Source: Sphingobacteriaceae bacterium (GTDB taxonomy: Bacteria > Bacteroidota > Bacteroidia > B-17B0 > Aurantibacillaceae). From it: a DNA stretch of 64,000 nucleotides. The notes under the pieces are model-generated. The model was not told the DNA's origin. It saw only the letters and a list, made by a program, of their open reading frames with translations, and made no database searches. A program made the translations under genes and the position numbers. Shown one piece after another: positions 13,587-62,448 of the stretch. The stretch covers positions 4,278,001 to 4,342,000 of the forward strand of contig NVQB01000001.1 in the NCBI GenBank assembly GCA_002319075.1. The letters are read 5' to 3'. Every line of letters starts with the position of its first letter. Position 1 is the first letter of the stretch.

Positions 13587-14297
13587 TTATTGTTTCTTTG
13601 TTGGTTGGCAATTGAGAGCGTGACAATTGATAGCTTCGCCGCCACTTACTTTAGGACTTACATAGGGAATGCCAAGGTTAAGACCTCTTAGTATAAAAAA
13701 TACAGCCATGAGTGTAACTGCAAACGGAATAACTTTCCGCATTTTAGTTCTAAAAGGAACTGTTACTATGCCGCTTGCCAGAGGCAAAAGTAGCATCATT
13801 GGTAAAGTACCTGCACCGAAGGCGGCCATAAATAGAGTGGCGTTTAAAAGCTCTCCTGTACCCACGGCTCCTGCAAGGCCAACATACACTAAACCACAAG
13901 GCAGCAAACCATTTAGCAGGCCAATAAAAAATAAGGAAGACTGAGTTCCCTTTGAAAACAAACGTTCGAAGGCTGTCTTAATGCCTAAGAAAAAAGGATA
14001 AGCGCCTGAAGAATATTTAAAAGGAAGAAAAACGGAAACAAGAAGAAGAATTCCAAGTGTGATGGATAAACTTTGCTGAAGTCCGGCAAGTGCAAAACTT
14101 TTACCAATAATTCCTGCGAAGAGACCCAGGAGGGAGTAGGTGATAATTCTTCCGAGGTTGTAAAGGAGGATGAGTGCATACTTAATGAGCGGCGGCTTAT
14201 GATGAACGGGCAGGGCCATAGCTATTGGCCCACACATGGCAATACAGTGAAAACTTCCTAAAAAACCTAAGCTAATAGCCGCAAGCAAAAAGTTCAT
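13587..14297 (-). CDS. TauE/SafE-like (DsbD_2) membrane protein of the cbb3 locus
   Basis: 236 residues with about six helices. The N-terminal SFHCIAMCGPIA motif (two Cys in the first helix) and a second half with GLLNGLLPCGLVYVGLAG are typical of the group annotated as sulfite exporter TauE/SafE, often found at the end of cbb3 operons. The paired Cys suggest thiol or copper handling rather than sulfite export. It overlaps ccoH by one base at the operon end. The C-terminal CHALNC is a further possible metal site. Confidence 0.8.
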   Translation of the reverse strand: MNFLLAAISLGFLGSFHCIAMCGPIAMALPVHHKPPLIKYALILLYNLGRIITYSLLGLFAGIIGKSFALAGLQQSLSITLGILLLVSVFLPFKYSSGAYPFFLGIKTAFERLFSKGTQSSLFFIGLLNGLLPCGLVYVGLAGAVGTGELLNATLFMAAFGAGTLPMMLLLPLASGIVTVPFRTKMRKVIPFAVTLMAVFFILRGLNLGIPYVSPKVSGGEAINCHALNCQPTKKQ

Positions 14298-40271: not shown

Positions 40272-41495
40272 ATGAGTACTTTAGTTTCAAATAATCTATT
40301 CGAAATGGAAAGTTTGAATGCACTTTTTGAGTACGCCACCGAAGGTATAATAATCTCGGAAAGATCTGGTAAAATAATAAAGGCTAACCCAAGCGCAGAA
40401 CGTTTGTTTCGTTACGAAAGAAATGAACTGCTTGGTAAGGTGATTGAAGATCTGGTACCCAGAAAATACAAAGAGCAACATGTACACGACCGGAGTGGTT
40501 ATAATGCAAATCCTCATGCGCGCTCCATGGGTAAGAACACAGATTTGTTTGCCCGTCGCAAAGATGATACAGAATTTCCTGTAGAGATCAGTCTCACCTT
40601 TTATAAAAAAGGAGAAGAAACTTTTGCCATTGCCTTTATAATTGATATTACCGAACGCAAAAAACACGAAGAAAATATTTTAAGACTTAACCAGGACCTT
40701 GAGAAGAAAGTAGAAGAGCGTACCAAGGTATTGCACGAAGCACTCATTGAGCTTGAAAACTCGAAAGAGCAGCTCAGCGAGGCCCTGGCTTCTGAAAAGC
40801 AATTGAATGATATGAAGTCGCGCTTTGTAACCATGGCTTCACATGAATTCCGCACACCTTTAAGTACTATTTTATCTTCCATCTCGCTTGTAAATAAATA
40901 CGATCACGGAGACAATACCGAGAAAGTAGAAAAGCATGTACACCGCATTAAGTCGGCTGTTACGAATATGACTTTAATATTGAATGACTTTTTATCTGCC
41001 GAAAAACTCGAAGAAGGAAAAGTGTTTGTGCGGATGGAAGAAAATAATTTACAGGATCTTACCAGCTCCATTATTAGCGAAGTTACAGGCTTATTAAAGC
41101 CAGGACAGAAAATAGAGTACCAGCACAGCGGCTCTGCAACAGCTTATTTCGATAAACAAATCATGCGGAATATTCTGCTCAACCTGATTTCAAACGCCAT
41201 CAAGTTTTCGCTGGAATATAAAAGTATTAAACTAGTTTCGAATGTTACAGAAAAGGAACTGAAACTGGAAGTCTCTGATGAAGGGATTGGAATTCCAGGC
41301 GATGAGCAGGAACACATGTTTGAACGCTTCTTCCGTTCTAAAAACGCCACCAATATTCAAGGTACAGGATTAGGTTTAAACATTGTTGCCAAATACCTTG
41401 AAGTAATGAATGGTACTATTCATTTTAAAAGCGAACTGAATAAAGGAACTACCTTTTATATCACCATACCAAACGAAAAAACAGTAACAGACTAA
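40272..41495 (+). CDS. PAS-domain histidine kinase (FixL-like layout)
   Basis: 407 residues, soluble. PAS at about 12-130, with IIKANPSAERLFRYERNELL and VPRKYKEQHVHDRSGY; a coiled coil at 130-185; HisKA (ASHEFRTPLSTILSS); HATPase with NLISNAIKFS, DEGIGIPG and GTGLGLNIVAKY. The His in KEQH falls at the place of the haem-ligand His of FixL when the two are aligned without gaps to the RRKDDTEFP block. That His is, however, common in ordinary PAS domains, so haem binding is only possible. The next gene, 2 bases on, is the receiver-Crp fusion. Confidence 0.9.
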   Translation: MSTLVSNNLFEMESLNALFEYATEGIIISERSGKIIKANPSAERLFRYERNELLGKVIEDLVPRKYKEQHVHDRSGYNANPHARSMGKNTDLFARRKDDTEFPVEISLTFYKKGEETFAIAFIIDITERKKHEENILRLNQDLEKKVEERTKVLHEALIELENSKEQLSEALASEKQLNDMKSRFVTMASHEFRTPLSTILSSISLVNKYDHGDNTEKVEKHVHRIKSAVTNMTLILNDFLSAEKLEEGKVFVRMEENNLQDLTSSIISEVTGLLKPGQKIEYQHSGSATAYFDKQIMRNILLNLISNAIKFSLEYKSIKLVSNVTEKELKLEVSDEGIGIPGDEQEHMFERFFRSKNATNIQGTGLGLNIVAKYLEVMNGTIHFKSELNKGTTFYITIPNEKTVTD

Positions 41496-41497
41496 TT

Positions 41498-42556
41498 ATG
41501 AAAACTATTTTAGTAATAGAAGACAATGTAGATGTTCGCGAAAATACCACAGAGATCCTCGAGATGGCCAGTTATAAGGTAATTCAGGCAGAGAATGGAA
41601 AAATAGGTGTAGACATTGCCCAAAATATAAAGTTAGATTTGATCATTTGTGATATTATGATGCCTGTGCTCGATGGGTATGGAGTGATTCATATGTTGAA
41701 TAAAAACCCGGAGACGGCAAGTATTCCCTTTATTTTTTTAACGGCCAAAAGCGAACGTACCGATATGCGCAAAGGCATGGAAATGGGAGCTGACGATTAT
41801 ATCAGTAAACCCTTTGACGACATTGAATTGCTCAATGCAGTGGAAAGCCGCCTGAGAAAAAACGATGTTCTCAAAGCTGAATACTCTCAGAACGTGCAAG
41901 GCCTGAATAAATTTTTTAATGAAGTTCAAAAATTTGACGACCTTAAAAAACTTTCTACCGACCGCCGCACTAAAACTTACAAGAAAAAAGAAACTATTTT
42001 CAGCGAAGAAAGCATTCCTGTATTTCTTTATTTTTTGGTGAAAGGTAAGGTGAAAACTTACCGCTCACATGAATATGGAAAAGAGCTGATAACAACACTT
42101 TATAAAGAAGGTGATTTTTTCGGCTACAATTCCTTATTAGAAGAAAAACCTTACACTGAAACAGCAGAAGCACTCGAAGATTCGGAAGTTTGCCTCATAC
42201 CGAAAGAAGATTTCTATGCGCTCGTTCATAATAACATGAATGTGATGCGCACCTTTATAAAAATGCTTTCTGGCAATGTGGCTGAGAAAGAAAAGCAACT
42301 CATCAACCTGGCCTATAGCTCCGTTCGAAAACGCGTAGCCGAAGCGCTGCTGCACCTCCAGGAACGCTACAGCAAACCCGCCGATCAAAACTTCAGTATG
42401 GCTATTTCCCGCGAAGACCTGGCCAACATGGTAGGCACAGCTACAGAATCGCTCATCCGCACCTTAAGCGAATTTAAAGAAGATAAACTGGTTGAAATAA
42501 AAGGCAGTAGCATTACCATTATAGATCCTGTAAAACTAAAAAATCTCAAAGCCTAA
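41498..42556 (+). CDS. Response regulator fused to a Crp/Fnr-type DNA-binding protein
   Basis: 352 residues. REC at 1-120 (VIEDNVDVRENT, Asp in LIICDIMMPVLDGYG, Lys in YISKPFDD), a linker, a cNMP-type beta roll at about 150-265 (FLYFLVKGKVKTYRS, GDFFGYNSLLEEKPY) and HTH_Crp at 280-352 (ISREDLANMVGTATESLIRT) with Glu and Arg in the recognition helix. Kinase and regulator are co-transcribed. Phosphorylation could directly control a Crp-type output at TGAT-N4-ATCA sites, merging the FixJ and FixK steps of rhizobia. Confidence 0.92.
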   Translation: MKTILVIEDNVDVRENTTEILEMASYKVIQAENGKIGVDIAQNIKLDLIICDIMMPVLDGYGVIHMLNKNPETASIPFIFLTAKSERTDMRKGMEMGADDYISKPFDDIELLNAVESRLRKNDVLKAEYSQNVQGLNKFFNEVQKFDDLKKLSTDRRTKTYKKKETIFSEESIPVFLYFLVKGKVKTYRSHEYGKELITTLYKEGDFFGYNSLLEEKPYTETAEALEDSEVCLIPKEDFYALVHNNMNVMRTFIKMLSGNVAEKEKQLINLAYSSVRKRVAEALLHLQERYSKPADQNFSMAISREDLANMVGTATESLIRTLSEFKEDKLVEIKGSSITIIDPVKLKNLKA

Positions 42557-55067: not shown

Positions 55068-55631
55068 ATGGAAAATTTATTTAGATTTTTTGATCAGTTT
55101 AACCCCCTTTCTGCAGAGGCTAAAAAAGCTATCACAAGCATTTCAAAAGTGGTTTCCGAAAAAAAGAATGGTGAACTGCAATCTATTGGGCATACCTGCA
55201 AAACCATCTACTTTATTAATAAGGGCAGTGCCAGAATATATTACTTCAAAGATGGCAAGGACATTACAGAAAGTTTTTCTTTTGAAAACAACATGATTGT
55301 CCGGGTAGAAAGTCTTCTTTCCGGAGAACCGTCGCGGAAGGCTATCCACGTGCTGGAAGACACAGAATTTATAGCAGTTGATTCCCACAAACTCTTTCAG
55401 CTCTACGATACCCATCACGACATAGAACGTTTATTCAGGAAATTATTCGAAGCCGGGTATCTTGAAACGGTACATCGTCTCGAAAGTATTCAATTTCATA
55501 CAGCCGAACAGCGCTATGCTAAACTCATAAAGGAGATGCCGGATATACTTAAACGTGTTCCGTTAAAGCATGTTGCTTCTTATCTGGGTATTACACAGGT
55601 AAGTTTGAGTCGTATCAGGGCAACGAAATAA
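55068..55631 (+). CDS. Crp/Fnr-family transcription regulator
   Basis: 187 residues. cNMP-type beta roll (TIYFINKGSARIYYFKDGKD), linker TAEQRYAKLIKEMPDIL and HTH VASYLGITQVSLSRIRATK. Same Bacteroidota subgroup as the one at 48229. There is a single Cys (HTCKT), so no Fe-S cluster. Target unknown. Confidence 0.9.
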   Translation: MENLFRFFDQFNPLSAEAKKAITSISKVVSEKKNGELQSIGHTCKTIYFINKGSARIYYFKDGKDITESFSFENNMIVRVESLLSGEPSRKAIHVLEDTEFIAVDSHKLFQLYDTHHDIERLFRKLFEAGYLETVHRLESIQFHTAEQRYAKLIKEMPDILKRVPLKHVASYLGITQVSLSRIRATK

Positions 55632-55795: not shown

Positions 55796-55945
55796 AAAGT
55801 TTGATGGAGAAGCTTACTGATCTAAGTATAATGTTGAAGGTGTAGAAATCTTTGCACGAAAAAAAAAATTGGGGAACAAAATAAAATTACAAGAAAAATA
55901 ATAAACTTTGTCTGTCTAAATTTGTTACACTTCCAAGCTTTTAGT

Positions 55946-57088
55946 ATGAACCAAATAGAGGAGTTTTTAAGCAGTATCTTTGAAAGCAGTTTATGGCCAG
56001 CAAGGTGGCATTGTGGTTACTGGTCTGACTTTCACGGCTGGCTCTATATTGTGAGTGATCTTCTTATATGGGCGGCGTATTTTACCATACCACTTCTTAT
56101 TCTCAATTACCTTTCAAAACGAAACAGTATTCGGTTTCATAAGGCGTATTTATACTTTGCTGCGTTTATACTGGCGTGTGGTTTAACGCATCTGGTAGAT
56201 GCGGTGATGTTTTGGATTCCCGTTTACCGATTTAATGCTTTGCTTAGATTTGCTACGGCAATAATCAGCTGGTTAACCGTCTACCATTTATTTAAACTGC
56301 TCCCTACAGCTTTTTCTTTAAAGACTTCAGAAGAACTTGAAAAGGAGGTTGAGAGAAATGCCCGGTTGTTTAAAGAACTTGAGCAGTATAATTTGGAGCT
56401 AACAAAAGCAAATTCTGAACTCGAACATTTTACCTATATCTTGAGTCACGATTTAAGGGAACCCCTTCGTAAGATCCTCATATTTTCTGACGCACTTTCG
56501 AATTCAATAACGTTGCCGGCAGAAAAAAATACAGTCTTAAAAATCCAACGCAGTGCTGAACGGATGAAAAGTCTGATTCAAAATGTTTTGGAGTATGCGA
56601 GTACCGGTAAAGTAGACTCTATTACAGAAACGGTAGATCTCAACAGGATTATAAATGATATTCTGGTAGATCTTGAATTAACTATTGCTGAGAAAAAAGC
56701 GGTAGTAAAATTCGCTTCTTTACCGGATGTTCAGGGTGTAAAGTACCAAATAGGTCAGGTAGTACTCAACCTTATCACCAATGGTTTAAAATACTGTACG
56801 GAAATTCCCTGTATAGAAATTTCACACACTACTGTTGTGAAAAATAGTGATGGAAAAGACGTTCGCTTTTTGGAGATAAGTTTTAAAGATAACGGTATAG
56901 GGTTTGACGAGAAATATAAAAGCGATATATTTTTTCCTTTCAAACGTCTGGCAAACAAATCAGAATTTGAAGGTACCGGTATTGGCCTAGCCCTGGTAAA
57001 AAGAATAATTGAAGATCATAAAGGTTATGTGGATGTTGAGAGCAAACCAGGGGTGGGATCTGTTTTTAAGATTGCCTTGCCTTTATAA
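55946..57088 (+). CDS. Histidine kinase with ethylene-receptor-type membrane domain
   Basis: About 380 residues from ATG 55946; a TTG at 55922 is less likely. The N-terminal 130 residues hold three to four helices beginning WHCGYWSDFHGWLYIVSDLL. The residues that matter in plant ETR1 are all present: Asp38, Tyr45, Ile48, Pro49, and Cys78 and His82 in ACGLTH, each exactly 13 positions after ETR1 Asp25, Tyr32, Ile35, Pro36, Cys65 and His69. Cys65 and His69 bind the copper that holds ethylene. There is no GAF domain: a coiled coil leads straight to HisKA (LSHDLREPLRKIL) and HATPase (NLITNGLKYC, DNGIGF, GTGIGLALVKRI). No cognate receiver is adjacent. Confidence 0.9.
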   Translation: MNQIEEFLSSIFESSLWPARWHCGYWSDFHGWLYIVSDLLIWAAYFTIPLLILNYLSKRNSIRFHKAYLYFAAFILACGLTHLVDAVMFWIPVYRFNALLRFATAIISWLTVYHLFKLLPTAFSLKTSEELEKEVERNARLFKELEQYNLELTKANSELEHFTYILSHDLREPLRKILIFSDALSNSITLPAEKNTVLKIQRSAERMKSLIQNVLEYASTGKVDSITETVDLNRIINDILVDLELTIAEKKAVVKFASLPDVQGVKYQIGQVVLNLITNGLKYCTEIPCIEISHTTVVKNSDGKDVRFLEISFKDNGIGFDEKYKSDIFFPFKRLANKSEFEGTGIGLALVKRIIEDHKGYVDVESKPGVGSVFKIALPL

Positions 57089-57139: not shown

Positions 57140-58492
57140 TTAAGCTACCTTACTAAAAACGCCTTCTTTTGGAATGGTTTGCCAATAGCGCTTGTCAAAG
57201 CACAAACAAATATTTCTCAGGAAAGATTTTCCTGCTTCCGTCACATACAAATGTCCGGGTATCAGGTTAAGAAGTCCATCTTCTTCAAGAGGTATACAGC
57301 GTAATACGCCTTCCTGCAAAACGGAAAAATTATAGGAATCTTTTTCCCAGGTGGTTTGGTACTGACACATGAGGTTTAGAATGTGTTTGCGTACGATTTT
57401 ATCTTCGTTGCTAAGACAATGTCCTTTAAAGATGGGAAAAGTATTTTTATTTACTGCTGCTGTATAAGCTTCCACTTCCTTTATATTTTGAGCAAAGGCA
57501 TCCCAGGTATCGCTGATAGAAGAAGCGCCCAGGCCGATCATTAATTCGGTGTAGTTGCTGGTGTAGCCCATAAAATTGCGGTGTAGCGTTTTATTCTGAA
57601 AAGCTTTATATAAACTGTCGGAGGCCAGGGCAAAATGATCCATGCCTACATCGTGATAACCGGCGGCTTTAAATAAATTCAAACCGCTTTCATAAAGCAT
57701 TCTTTTTTGTACTCCATCGGGCAGATCGCGTTCTGTAAATTTCCGCTGTCCGGGCTTAAGCCAGGGCACATGGGCATAACTGTAAAAGGCAATGCGTTCT
57801 GGTTTTAACTCTATAACGGATTGAATCGTTTTGAGGAGTTTGGCTTGTTCCTGAAAGGGAAGACCATAAACAAGATCGAAGTTAATACTGGTGTAACCTA
57901 TTTCGCGCGCCATGGCTACCACCTTTTGCACATTCTCAAGTGGTTGAATGCGGTTGATGGCCAGCTGAACTTTTTCGTCAAGATCCTGCACACCAAAACT
58001 TACACGTCTGAATCCCAGGTCGTACAGCGTTTTCAGATGTTCTTTACTTGTATTGTTAGGATGGCCCTCAAAGCTAAATTCGGCATCGTCGCAAACTGCA
58101 GCGTTTGTGAGCAGTCCGGAGATTAATTTTTTGAGATTGGAGGCTGAGAAAAAAGTGGGAGTTCCGCCGCCCAGGTGCAGTTCGCGGATTCTTGGCACCT
58201 CTTTAAACAAATCAAGATACAAACTCCATTCTTTGAGCAAAGCATTTATATAGGGCTCTTCTACACCATGATTCACGGTAATGCGCGTATTGCAGGCGCA
58301 ATAGGTGCACAGGCTGTCGCAAAAAGGAAGATGAATGTAAATGCTGATGCCATCTGCATCATTGGTTTTTAAAAAGGTTTCTTTTACGCTTTGTTTCCAT
58401 TGCTCTTGGCTAACACGGTTTTCCCAATAGGGCAGCGTGGGGTAGCTGGTATAACGGGGCACTGCAACATTGTATTTGTCTATGAGCTTCAT
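57140..58492 (-). CDS. hemN: Oxygen-independent coproporphyrinogen III oxidase
   Basis: 450 residues, the normal length. The radical-SAM motif is CDSLCTYCAC (Cys58, Cys62, Cys65 plus Cys67), preceded by YTSYPTLPYW and followed by HLGGGTPTFFS and FEGHPNN. It decarboxylates coproporphyrinogen III without oxygen, for haem synthesis under anoxia. It overlaps the stop of the PLP decarboxylase gene by 4 bases, the third gene of an operon that starts with usp at 60655 and an FNR-type box. Confidence 0.97.
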   Translation of the reverse strand: MKLIDKYNVAVPRYTSYPTLPYWENRVSQEQWKQSVKETFLKTNDADGISIYIHLPFCDSLCTYCACNTRITVNHGVEEPYINALLKEWSLYLDLFKEVPRIRELHLGGGTPTFFSASNLKKLISGLLTNAAVCDDAEFSFEGHPNNTSKEHLKTLYDLGFRRVSFGVQDLDEKVQLAINRIQPLENVQKVVAMAREIGYTSINFDLVYGLPFQEQAKLLKTIQSVIELKPERIAFYSYAHVPWLKPGQRKFTERDLPDGVQKRMLYESGLNLFKAAGYHDVGMDHFALASDSLYKAFQNKTLHRNFMGYTSNYTELMIGLGASSISDTWDAFAQNIKEVEAYTAAVNKNTFPIFKGHCLSNEDKIVRKHILNLMCQYQTTWEKDSYNFSVLQEGVLRCIPLEEDGLLNLIPGHLYVTEAGKSFLRNICLCFDKRYWQTIPKEGVFSKVA

Positions 58493-59739
58493 GCTAATAA
58501 GCGTTTAATTAGTAACTCGTCAGAAAGCTGGGAGATAAATTGATCCAATACCCCTGGTTTTACATGGGGCATCATCACGATCTTATACCAGGCAGGTTCT
58601 TCATGGTTGTCGGGTACCAACATGTATTTTCGCGCAATGTCTACGGAAATAAACTCACTTTTAATACTGATCATATTTAAGTAAGGATTGTGGTAATAGT
58701 CAACGAGCAATGCATCCAGCGCTGAACAAAGTGACCTGGTTTTATCCAACAGGTTATGCATTTTCACTGTCCAACCCACCGATCCATACATGTGAAGGAT
58801 CATCCACATGCAAGCTGCATTAGCGCCAGATCTGCTTCCGCATAAGGTATAATCTTTTCCCATTACATAAGAGGCTTCGTTGGTACAAACGTATTGAAGC
58901 ATGTTTTTTCTCACTAAAAAAATACCTGTACCATATGGCGCCTGAAGCATTTTATGTCCATCAACTGTTATAGAGCTTACGTGTGGGTTATTAAAATTAT
59001 GTTTGCTTTTAGAATTCGTAAAGGGATAGATAAATCCTCCAAAGGCAGCATCTATATGTAATTTGTAGTTAATGCCCAGCAGATGTAAAAGATTCGTGAT
59101 CTTATCAATATCGTCGACACTGCCAAACATGGTGGTAGACAAATTTATGTTAACTATAAAATAGTTTACTCCACGGTGTAATTCTTTCACCAGCTTTTGT
59201 TCGAGGTCTTGAATGTTTACTTCGCGCGTGGCTTCGTCTACGGTAAATACCAGGGAGCGGAGACCCAGTAAATTTGCAGCTTTAGGAAAAGAGTAATGCG
59301 AGTCCTGCGAATAGACGGCTACAATTTCTTCCGGTTTTGCAGCATATTCCTGCATGTAGTAATTACGGTAAATCCAAAGCGCTTCTATGTTTGCTTCAGT
59401 TCCGCCAGAAGACACATAGCCATCGCAGCTACCTTGTTCTGCACCAAAAATTTCTTCAGAGCAAATGCGTATAAGATCGCGCTCAATTTCCTGCGTGCCT
59501 TTAAACACCGGTTCTCCTTCATGGTCAAGAGTATGACACCCAATGTGATTGGGATTAGCGATCAACATGGAAAGAAAAGGGGCTTCTTTTAAAAAAGGTG
59601 CGTCTTCATAAAATACTTCACTGTCAAGAAAAGTTGCCGGAACACCGAGAATATACTCACTGCGGTAATTCAGGTTTTTTCCGAGTGCTTCAAAAATTTT
59701 TAATTTAATTTCCTGAGTACTAAGTTTTGGCCAGTTCAT
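58489..59739 (-). CDS. PLP-dependent group II amino-acid decarboxylase
   Basis: 416 residues with a type I PLP fold: SSGGTEANIEALWIYRNYY, DSHYSFPKAANLLGL, LHIDAAFGGFIYPF (the Asp contacting the pyridine N) and SSITVDGHKMLQAPYG with the Schiff-base Lys. It resembles histidine, tyrosine or glutamate decarboxylases of the short bacterial type; substrate unclear. Being between usp and hemN suggests use in anoxic acid or amine metabolism. It starts 22 bases after the usp stop. Confidence 0.88.
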   Translation of the reverse strand: MNWPKLSTQEIKLKIFEALGKNLNYRSEYILGVPATFLDSEVFYEDAPFLKEAPFLSMLIANPNHIGCHTLDHEGEPVFKGTQEIERDLIRICSEEIFGAEQGSCDGYVSSGGTEANIEALWIYRNYYMQEYAAKPEEIVAVYSQDSHYSFPKAANLLGLRSLVFTVDEATREVNIQDLEQKLVKELHRGVNYFIVNINLSTTMFGSVDDIDKITNLLHLLGINYKLHIDAAFGGFIYPFTNSKSKHNFNNPHVSSITVDGHKMLQAPYGTGIFLVRKNMLQYVCTNEASYVMGKDYTLCGSRSGANAACMWMILHMYGSVGWTVKMHNLLDKTRSLCSALDALLVDYYHNPYLNMISIKSEFISVDIARKYMLVPDNHEEPAWYKIVMMPHVKPGVLDQFISQLSDELLIKRLLA

Positions 59740-60841: not shown

Positions 60842-61327
60842 ATGGAAACACCTGCAATTCAACCAGCGATACTAGTTTCTCCTTTTAAATTTCACGAGAG
60901 GGATATAAAAATTAAAAACATTTTATGGTCTTGTTCAAGGCTCACTTTGCTTTTGATGCTGCTGAGTGCAAATTTAGCGAGCCAGATTTGCGACAAAAAA
61001 ACTTCTGTTTTTTTTGATGCTGATAAATACAACATCTCAGGCAACGAAGGTCAAAAGCTGGAGAAGCTTTGTAAAGTCTTTGCGCAACAAACGGACACAT
61101 TTATGCTCGAAGTTTATTCTTTCAGCGATAGCATTGCGTCTGTTGAATACAATTACAAACTGGCGGGCAAAAGATTGAAAACGATCGTGAGCTATTTAAA
61201 AAAGAATTCCTCTGCTTATTTTGAAATTAAAGAAACTATTCGGGCGAGGAAATGCCTTCGGGTAGCAATGCTACGGAGGAAGGTAGGGCAAGGAATAGAC
61301 GCGTTGATATTTTTTACTGGAAAATGA
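60842..61327 (+). CDS. OmpA-domain protein, N-terminal part before a frameshift
   Basis: 161 codons. After a long N-terminal region and a signal-like helix (LTLLLMLLSANLAS) comes an OmpA-type domain (KTSVFFDADKYNISGNEGQK, YNYKLAGKRLKTIVSYLKKN). The frame breaks near 61241-61245 (CGGGC). One extra G there would continue as R-G-E-E-MPSGSNATEEGRARNRRVDI, the standard OmpA ending, encoded in the frame of the next entry. So this and the next entry are almost certainly one gene. Confidence 0.7.
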   Translation: METPAIQPAILVSPFKFHERDIKIKNILWSCSRLTLLLMLLSANLASQICDKKTSVFFDADKYNISGNEGQKLEKLCKVFAQQTDTFMLEVYSFSDSIASVEYNYKLAGKRLKTIVSYLKKNSSAYFEIKETIRARKCLRVAMLRRKVGQGIDALIFFTGK

Positions 61328-62448
61328 AGGGTGATAAAATTACTTTAAAAGCTAAAGGTGGTACGGAGATAGACCTGGATAAAAATTATTTTGGATCGTG
61401 TGGTGTTTGTGGAAGCAAACCCGTAATGACCGAGGTGTTTACTAACGAACAGGCTGCGCAACAAGGCGTTTCACTGCAAACAACAGATGGGGATAATCTT
61501 ATAACCGGCGGGATGATGAATTTAGAATTGAATTGCCCGGATAGAATTGACCGTAATAGAAAAAAAACCTGGCCGTGTTCGGATGTAGTGATCAGAATAC
61601 CCGCTGCAAACTTTGACCCGGAGATGGGAGTGTGGAAGGTGAGTAGAGAAAGTACCACAGGTGCTATCAAGTGGGAGCAAGACGAGAAGGGCGAACTAGA
61701 ATACGATGCCAAAAATAAATGCTACATCATGCGCGCTAATTATTGTCCCGGATTAGGCAATATGCTTTCAGGAATAAATTGCGATAAGCGGGGCGGAATG
61801 GGTACGAGTACCGGACGGTTGAAAGATTCCATAGGCCTTATTGCTGTTCCCGAACTTGCACGAAGCAGGAGAACAACGAATGTAAGAGCTGTTAATTCGG
61901 GACTTATATATGGCAATGGTGTAGAGTCTGTGAATATATGGAGGTTTAGCTACAGAGGAAAAGGAAGTGTGTTTTTTGAGGACCAGGGGCTTGCGAAAAA
62001 TAACATAGGTTACATGTTTTCTGGCAACATCGATCGTTACGAGGCAGAATGTGACAGTGGGCGCATCAAAGAAAAAAAGTGCTGGTGTTTTGAAATACCT
62101 ATTGAGGCTTACGACAAAATAATTTATTTTAAAAAGAAGAAAGAAATCCGCTTAAAAGTCCCCTATAAGTACAGGAACTATGCCGTGAAATTGTTTATTC
62201 CTGCGGCTGACACGCTGCTTCCGCTTAAAAAAACCGGAAACTCAGAAAGAAAATATGCCTTTAAAGAACCGTTGCCTGAGACCTATATAGTACTGTATAA
62301 TGAAACTGCAAACGCTTCGGATAAGAGAGCTTATGACGGACATGTATATCTTGGAGAGGTAAAAACAAAGTACAATAAGCGTCACCACTACTACAAAGCC
62401 AAACTAAAGAGGAGACAAGTAAGGAAGGCTATCTCCAATAATTCCTGA
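61252..62448 (+). CDS. OmpA-domain protein, C-terminal part with unknown Cys-containing region
   Basis: The first 24 codons finish the OmpA domain (SNATEEGRARNRRVDIFYWK). The following 370 residues form a large unrecognised region with several Cys (FGSCGVCGSKPV, CPDRIDRNRK, YCPGLGNML, KKCWCFEIPI), perhaps disulfide-bonded outside the cell. The apparent start at 61252 is an internal Met. No family recognised for the long region. Confidence 0.65.
   Translation: MPSGSNATEEGRARNRRVDIFYWKMKGDKITLKAKGGTEIDLDKNYFGSCGVCGSKPVMTEVFTNEQAAQQGVSLQTTDGDNLITGGMMNLELNCPDRIDRNRKKTWPCSDVVIRIPAANFDPEMGVWKVSRESTTGAIKWEQDEKGELEYDAKNKCYIMRANYCPGLGNMLSGINCDKRGGMGTSTGRLKDSIGLIAVPELARSRRTTNVRAVNSGLIYGNGVESVNIWRFSYRGKGSVFFEDQGLAKNNIGYMFSGNIDRYEAECDSGRIKEKKCWCFEIPIEAYDKIIYFKKKKEIRLKVPYKYRNYAVKLFIPAADTLLPLKKTGNSERKYAFKEPLPETYIVLYNETANASDKRAYDGHVYLGEVKTKYNKRHHYYKAKLKRRQVRKAISNNS

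Follow-up and report, generated by a model that had tools for sequence, protein, structure and literature searches.

Among the literature matches listed, bacterial ethylene binding has so far been tested in cyanobacteria and in Azospirillum. In Azospirillum, a fragment of the sensor kinase AzoEtr1 comprising residues 1–130 shows saturable binding of 14C-ethylene, and gene disruptions leave little or no ethylene binding (PMC11819568). The same source gives seven as the number of ETR1 residues required for ethylene binding, and it goes on to report the same seven residues in AzoEtr1, to describe a receiver-only gene of 135 aa that overlaps the stop of the AzoEtr1 kinase gene, and to mention putative ethylene receptors in "other bacterial phyla" (PMC11819568). 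In ETR1, the Cu(I) site is formed by Asp25, Cys65, and His69 (PMC12643061), and an Asp → Asn change lowers the affinity ∼100-fold (PMC13012798). Lys91 of ETR1 is said to pair with Asp25 in a salt bridge. Copper is delivered to ETR1 in plants by the copper pump RAN1, a separate protein (PMC13012798). Cyanobacterial receptors have a single N-terminal Cys, which has been suggested to form a disulphide in the dimer (PMC6682694).

Among the matches listed from the open-licence literature, none deals with an ethylene receptor from Bacteroidota, although surveys may list Bacteroidota sequences. The locus considered here lies in a stretch of 64,000 nucleotides from a Bacteroidota genome (GCA_002319075.1, contig NVQB01000001.1, positions 4,278,001–4,342,000), called the window below. 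The original prediction, that a Bacteroidota bacterium may sense ethylene through a kinase encoded in this stretch, stands in part, in that the kinase is of the receptor type, intact, and to judge from its sequence likely capable of binding Cu(I) and ethylene. It is, however, less unusual than was implied, because SynEtr1 and AzoEtr1 have been published and the domain occurs in 21 of 395 sampled genomes of the phylum (a count that takes in the source genome of the window and a weak match, L021, of 51.5 bits).

An ETR1_N sensor kinase encoded in the window

The coordinates, reading frame, and residues of the kinase gene all check out (Table 1), and its product is almost certainly a membrane sensor kinase of the ETR1_N family. 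The profile search with the ethylene-binding domain that had been proposed earlier gave a score of 104.7 bits against a curated Pfam cut-off of 27 (E value in Table 1), so far above the cut-off that a chance occurrence of the residue pattern was ruled out, and a scan of the source genome (5.65 Mb, two contigs) gave a single ETR1_N match (108 bits). The kinase boxes SHDLREP (with His168), NLITN, DNGIG, and GTGIGL are present and intact, and from these H, N, G1, and G2 boxes the histidine kinase is predicted to be functional. Pfam found neither a GAF nor a PAS match over all 380 aa, in agreement with the earlier statement that no GAF domain lies between the sensor and HisKA. The ATG at 55946 is the likely start codon; the TTG at 55922, which a mechanical list of open reading frames gives as the start, falls within the stretch TAAATTTG (55917–55924), a possible −7 promoter element. 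This stretch fits TAnnTTTG, the consensus of the Bacteroidota −7 element; no −33 element was identified alongside it. The kinase gene looks like a single-gene unit. A viral origin was rejected, the sole IMG/VR match (L024) spanning residues 111–380 without the first two sensor helices.

Table 1. Coordinates, within the window, of the kinase gene, its domains and predicted ligand residues, and adjoining features
Feature	Position	Strand	Basis or remark
Crp-type gene (cNMP_binding), 314 bases upstream of the kinase gene, context	55068..55631	+	Pfam
TAAATTTG, possible −7 promoter element 5′ of ATG 55946	55917..55924	+	Fits consensus TAnnTTTG
Complete CDS, sensor kinase (ETR1_N, HisKA, HATPase_c) without a neighbouring regulator gene	55946..57088	+	380 aa
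Cys23, N-terminal, predicted outside	56012..56014	+	Cys in 75/81 aligned domains
ETR1_N ethylene-binding domain, residues 30–124, three predicted membrane helices	56033..56317	+	Pfam E 3.2e-30; AlphaFold2; hydrophobicity
Asp38 = ETR1 Asp25, helix 1	56057..56059	+	Alignment
Cys78 in helix 2, aligned with ETR1 Cys65, predicted to bind Cu(I)	56177..56179	+	Alignment; AlphaFold2
His82 in helix 2, aligned with ETR1 His69, predicted to bind Cu(I)	56189..56191	+	Alignment; AlphaFold2
HisKA dimerisation/phosphoacceptor domain, residues 160–219, His168 in SHDLREP	56423..56602	+	Pfam; motif check
HATPase_c catalytic domain, residues 268–380, N, G1, and G2 boxes	56747..57085	+	Pfam; motif check
Radical-SAM gene, HemN-like by eye, convergent	57140..58492	−	Pfam; follows cbb3 block in 5/7 genus-mate stretches
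PLP-dependent decarboxylase-type gene	58489..59739	−	Pfam; adjoins hemN in 5/7 genus-mate stretches

All seven ethylene-binding residues of ETR1 (Asp25, Tyr32, Ile35, Pro36, Ile62, Cys65, and His69) have their counterparts in the window sensor (Asp38, Tyr45, Ile48, Pro49, Ile75, Cys78, and His82), each at the ETR1 number plus 13 and with no gap between them. The constant offset had been predicted for six of these residues and is borne out, with Ile75 as a seventh that the earlier list lacked. The seven are reportedly those that Wang et al. in 2006 found to be needed for ethylene binding. At the column of ETR1 Lys91, the window sensor has Arg101, a conservative change, and the loop between helices 2 and 3 is three residues shorter than in ETR1.

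An AlphaFold2 model built with 43 sequences (mean pLDDT 86.4, pTM 0.60) places helices at residues 28–58, 65–88, and 94–124, followed by a long helix at 128–187, and hydrophobic peaks lie at residues 35–53, 71–89, and 98–116. Cys78 and His82 both fall inside the predicted membrane helix 65–88. The peaks, together with four positive residues in the loop 57–67, fit a topology in which the N terminus would be outside and Cys78 and His82 within the membrane. A sequence search found no solved structure of the sensor domain; the one match, at E 0.14, was unrelated. The window sensor kinase is real and complete, and its binding site is probably functional.

Distribution and conservation of the sensor in Bacteroidota

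None of 14 control genomes has an ETR1_N match, and in the weak match L021 the Cys/His pair is out of place by eye. Among 60 relatives' genomes searched, only the window's own and that of L022 scored above the cut-off, while L023, below the cut-off, resembles an oxidase subunit by eye and was dropped. A search of 36 genus mates, not all of them complete genomes, found the domain in none. When named genomes were scanned with an alignment of six sensor rows, 204 of the 223 pattern matches proved to be relatives, and the best 80 of these (L028–L107) were compared; they were found by patterns inside the sensor, which favours close relatives. The best 80 of the 204 include members of Niastella, Dyadobacter, Mucilaginibacter, Flavisolibacter, Ferruginibacter, Segetibacter, Puia, and other genera.

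In the 81 aligned domains (the best 80 of 204 and the window), the residues at the positions of Tyr32, Ile62, Cys65, and Ser98 are invariant, Asp25 and Pro36 are each kept in 80, and Ile35 is Ile in 68, Met in 10, and Leu in three. The position of His69 is occupied by His in 75 and by Tyr in six, and that of Lys91 by Arg in 78, as in the window sensor (Arg101), and by Lys in three. Pfam matched ETR1_N in 80/80 of the same relatives, HATPase_c in 68/80, HisKA in 51/80, and PAS_3 in 52/80, with a GAF-family match in 0/80 at E 0.001; the missing GAF is therefore ordinary for the Bacteroidota clade. In 16 or more of the 79 complete frames the H box comes, as in the window protein, within the first 200 aa, which leaves no room for a PAS domain; this number is a lower bound, as the H-box pattern missed 14 of the 79. 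L065, which runs off its contig, is excluded from counts of 79, and the short frames L032, L035, L091, and L093 (190–301 aa), probably broken or cut, are kept in them.

In a tree of 105 sensors over 135 columns, the window protein groups with sequences from Bacteroidota alone, in a clade of 86 rows (100/98), and its sister is L028 (100/98); the columns are few, many forks are unresolved, and the meeting of long branches, ETR1 among them, was flagged. Left out of the tree were L006 (in-frame stop), L021 and L027 (weak matches), the near-duplicates L011, L013, and L017, and further L025, L026, L108, L110, L115, and L116. The in-frame stop of L006 (genome G371) lies inside the sensor of an ethylene-binding-domain kinase and reflects either a decayed gene or a sequence error. 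The clade is marked by the outer segment PRWxCGxW...HGWLY and is separate from the receptors of cyanobacteria and Azospirillum whose binding has been tested; the PHGxC type of AzoEtr1 and the cyanobacterial receptors is also found in other Bacteroidota. A plasmid search with the sensor alone (E up to 1e-4) returned 18 records, seven of them from Azospirillum. The haloarchaeal match H2, obtained with the whole protein and starting at residue 26, is not among these 18 sensor-only records and was not counted as a domain carrier.

Receiver genes and the output of the kinase

Of 79 relatives, 39 have a receiver-type gene downstream, on the same strand and no more than 600 bases away, in many cases with an overlap of a few bases at the kinase stop. 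This count is partly circular, as 38 downstream genes picked out by pattern went into the receiver HMM. Thirty-eight of these genes encode 127–171 aa and one encodes 209 aa, and Response_reg was confirmed by Pfam in the downstream gene of L054, the one of the 39 tested. This kinase-then-receiver layout, as in AzoEtr1, counts in favour of reading the family as receptors. The window kinase has no adjacent receiver gene, and no receiver-HMM match was found at 48–64 kb of the window; the next gene, at 57140, is convergent and HemN-like. Its receiver partner would be encoded elsewhere in the genome, which has at least 150 receiver-domain matches, many on short frames, and the attempt to pick the partner from among them was abandoned since there was no way to choose.

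The lack of an adjacent regulator, together with Arg101 in place of Lys91 and the absence of the domain from the genus mates, was counted against the receptor reading. The kinase could also be a recently acquired orphan with no working output, in which ligand binding may persist but the kinase, lacking its receiver partner, would be a relic. The single match in the genome, the domain-free genus mates, and the missing neighbour would suit such a relic; the frame is, however, full length with intact kinase boxes and binding residues, the sister L028 has the same short layout, and the many receiver domains of the genome would make unlinked partners plentiful. This reading is considered very unlikely.

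Genomic surroundings

The original prediction also placed the kinase within a gas/redox-regulated island. A Pfam search of 40 window frames turned up cbb3 oxidase subunits at 14.8–19.9 kb, a heavy-metal ATPase at 20.4–22.8 kb, and several Usp proteins, Crp-type regulators, Hsp20, TauE, and VIT1, and these genes, with the HemN-like gene, lend the island weak support; against it stand the single-gene unit and the flanks of the 80 relatives. These flanks (up to 8 kb, cut at contig ends) hold relatives of the cbb3, hemN, decarboxylase, copper-ATPase, or Usp genes in 0/80 cases (blastp, E 1e-12, half or more of the query covered), and a conserved gas/redox island was rejected for flanks of that length. 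The island is taken as a location and not as evidence of function. A relative of the upstream Crp-type gene (29–40% identity) lies upstream on the opposite strand in 9/80 relatives, all Dyadobacter. Against the rejection of a conserved island stand, besides the short flanks, a VIT1 relative that adjoins the kinase in L064 (1/80) and a receiver-Crp relative (26%) 5 kb from the kinase in L074 (1/80). No plant or ethylene link was seen in the neighbourhood of the window kinase.

Counting the source genome itself, 24 of the 40 genomes in the genus have a relative of the radical-SAM gene, and seven genus-mate stretches around it were compared (L138–L144). In L139–L143, hemN comes after the gene that ends the cbb3 block of the window (13587–14297), with the decarboxylase gene between them in four, and L142 has the entire cbb3 block. 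In L138, which has the closest hemN, hemN and the decarboxylase gene stand beside relatives of the window genes at 24.7–25.8 kb, with a heavy-metal ATPase relative farther away, and in L144 hemN stands alone. Four of the five genomes with hemN after the cbb3 block were searched for ETR1_N and none has the domain. In the window, ∼30 kb (about 26–57 kb) with Usp, Hsp20, BON, Crp-type, and two-component genes separates the cbb3 and hemN genes. The kinase looks to be within a lineage-specific stretch adjoining microaerobic genes. Elsewhere in the window, a REC + cNMP_binding + HTH_Crp fusion (41498–42556) lies directly behind a PAS histidine kinase (40272–41495), and an OmpA-type domain seems to span two overlapping frames (60842–61327 and 61252–62448), a frame break in either the gene or the sequence.

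Possible signals of the predicted Cu(I) site

What the site senses might instead be copper supply, O2, CO, redox state, or some further Cu(I) ligand, with ethylene bound only incidentally. Such a signal would suit microaerobic respiration, and the window has the cbb3 block, the heavy-metal P-type ATPase, and Crp-type regulators, although relatives of the cbb3, hemN, copper-ATPase, and Usp genes were found in the flanks (up to 8 kb) of none of the 80 related sensors. In another Bacteroidota genus the domain is fused to an HMA-bearing P-type ATPase just downstream of cydAB (by eye), and in L051 and L062 a gene with a c-type-cytochrome-like CxxCH start lies next door (by eye). The fused domain, however, has Asn at the Asp25 position and so is no plain copy of the window domain, and the window sensor retains all seven of the residues on which ethylene binding by ETR1 depends. 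This alternative is judged unlikely, though with more weight than the relic.

The fusion is found in a genus (g120) of another Bacteroidota family, at L145:4440–9035 (+), as a protein of 1532 aa that joins a copper-pump-type ATPase to an ethylene-type sensor kinase, and also in L005 and L007. In L145 its order by Pfam is HMA, E1-E2 ATPase, hydrolase, ETR1_N (105 bits), PAS, HisKA, and HATPase_c; a receiver-only gene (Response_reg by Pfam) follows directly, and the two genes upstream are those read by eye as cydAB. A full open frame of 1567 aa is present in two genomes (G184 and G373) and a frame of 1028 aa at a contig edge in a third genome of the genus; among the nine sensor-bearing genomes (164 genomes of that order), only these three have a frame of more than 1000 aa. 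Pump and sensor are one chain in L145, whereas RAN1 and ETR1 are separate in plants. No study of a pump-sensor fusion was found among the matches listed in the open-licence literature.

Six relatives (L080, L082, L083, L085, L086, and L102) have Tyr in place of His69 and Asn or Ser in place of Cys23 and form one clade (100/100). Four of the six, aligned to the kinase, end without a catalytic region, and the other two are of the same length. Each of the six follows a FeoB-like gene (of these genes, the one in L083 was checked with Pfam) and faces genes read by eye as IscA and IscS (6/6) and IscU (5/6). The sensor of this branch has possibly been re-tuned to iron, and since all six relatives form one clade, the Tyr69 type and its FeoB/Isc linkage probably represent one evolutionary event.

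Proposed mechanism and significance

For the window protein, Cu(I)-dependent ethylene binding in vitro is likely, and the overall reading, in which an ETR1_N-type Cu(I) site binds ethylene or a like gas and controls the kinase, is preferred with moderate confidence. That ethylene is the natural signal falls a little short of an even chance. In the mechanism that we infer, three N-terminal helices, with the N terminus outside, would form a site where Cys78 and His82 hold Cu(I) with Asp38 near, and a small unsaturated gas, most likely ethylene, would bind the copper. The change would then travel through helix 3 and directly along the long helix into HisKA, where autophosphorylation of His168 would be altered, and with it phosphotransfer to a receiver protein encoded elsewhere. 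Cu(I) loading, the ethylene ligand, the direction of signalling, the partner, and the control of autophosphorylation by way of these helices are all parts of the proposal.

Should ethylene be bound by the Bacteroidota clade, the bacteria that could respond to ethylene from plants or microbes would grow by a large group, many of whose members seem, judged by names alone, to come from soil, sediment, and freshwater. A broader and tentative view, rather improbable as a whole, is that the PRWxCGxW...HGWLY clade consists of widespread copper-based gas receptors to which dedicated pumps hand over copper (the pump-sensor fusion being the extreme case), with a ligand that is mostly ethylene and that has drifted to copper, iron, or respiration in side branches (the Asn25 fusion and the Tyr69 FeoB/Isc branch). 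The layout of 380 aa, with nothing between sensor and kinase, would be handy for studying the control of a kinase by copper and ethylene.

Comparison with known receptors

Within the clade, L028, L044 (Flavisolibacter ginsengisoli), and L078 (Segetibacter koreensis) share the short layout of the window kinase (368–375 aa), but have different gene neighbours. L028, which is 68–69% identical to the window protein in the sensor domain, has a receiver-type gene 211 bases downstream, where the window kinase has none.

Arabidopsis ETR1 and ERS1 likewise combine a three-helix sensor with a kinase module, and the window sensor is 32% identical to that of ETR1 over 97 aa, with the seven residues at one offset. 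The plant receptors have a GAF domain, two N-terminal Cys, an endomembrane location, and CTR1 as output; the window kinase has no match to the ETR/ERS-type GAF between sensor and kinase. SynEtr1 (slr1212) of Synechocystis, likened here by description, is also a bacterial sensor kinase with an ethylene-binding domain and shown to bind ethylene, but carries a cyanobacteriochrome light-sensing domain (PMC6682694). Cys23 of the window sensor matches the single N-terminal Cys of the cyanobacterial receptors.

AzoEtr1 is locus L120 of A. brasilense Sp7, a frame of 525 aa starting MFGGVEAF, whose length and start match the length and the cloning primer given for it (PMC11819568). A two-sequence comparison gave 33% identity between AzoEtr1 and the window sensor over 124 aa (E 2e-24). 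AzoEtr1 differs in having a PAS domain between sensor and kinase and an adjacent regulator, both of which the window kinase lacks (no receiver-only gene lies directly downstream), in having Lys where the window sensor has Arg101, and in the motif PHGxC in place of that of the Bacteroidota clade (PARW in the window protein). The two proteins are alike in an N-terminal domain with all seven residues, one N-terminal Cys, HisKA and HATPase_c domains, and no GAF match, and the downstream receiver-type gene of AzoEtr1 recurs in many of the Bacteroidota relatives. Bacterial ethylene receptors are already known, and the window kinase joins a known family.
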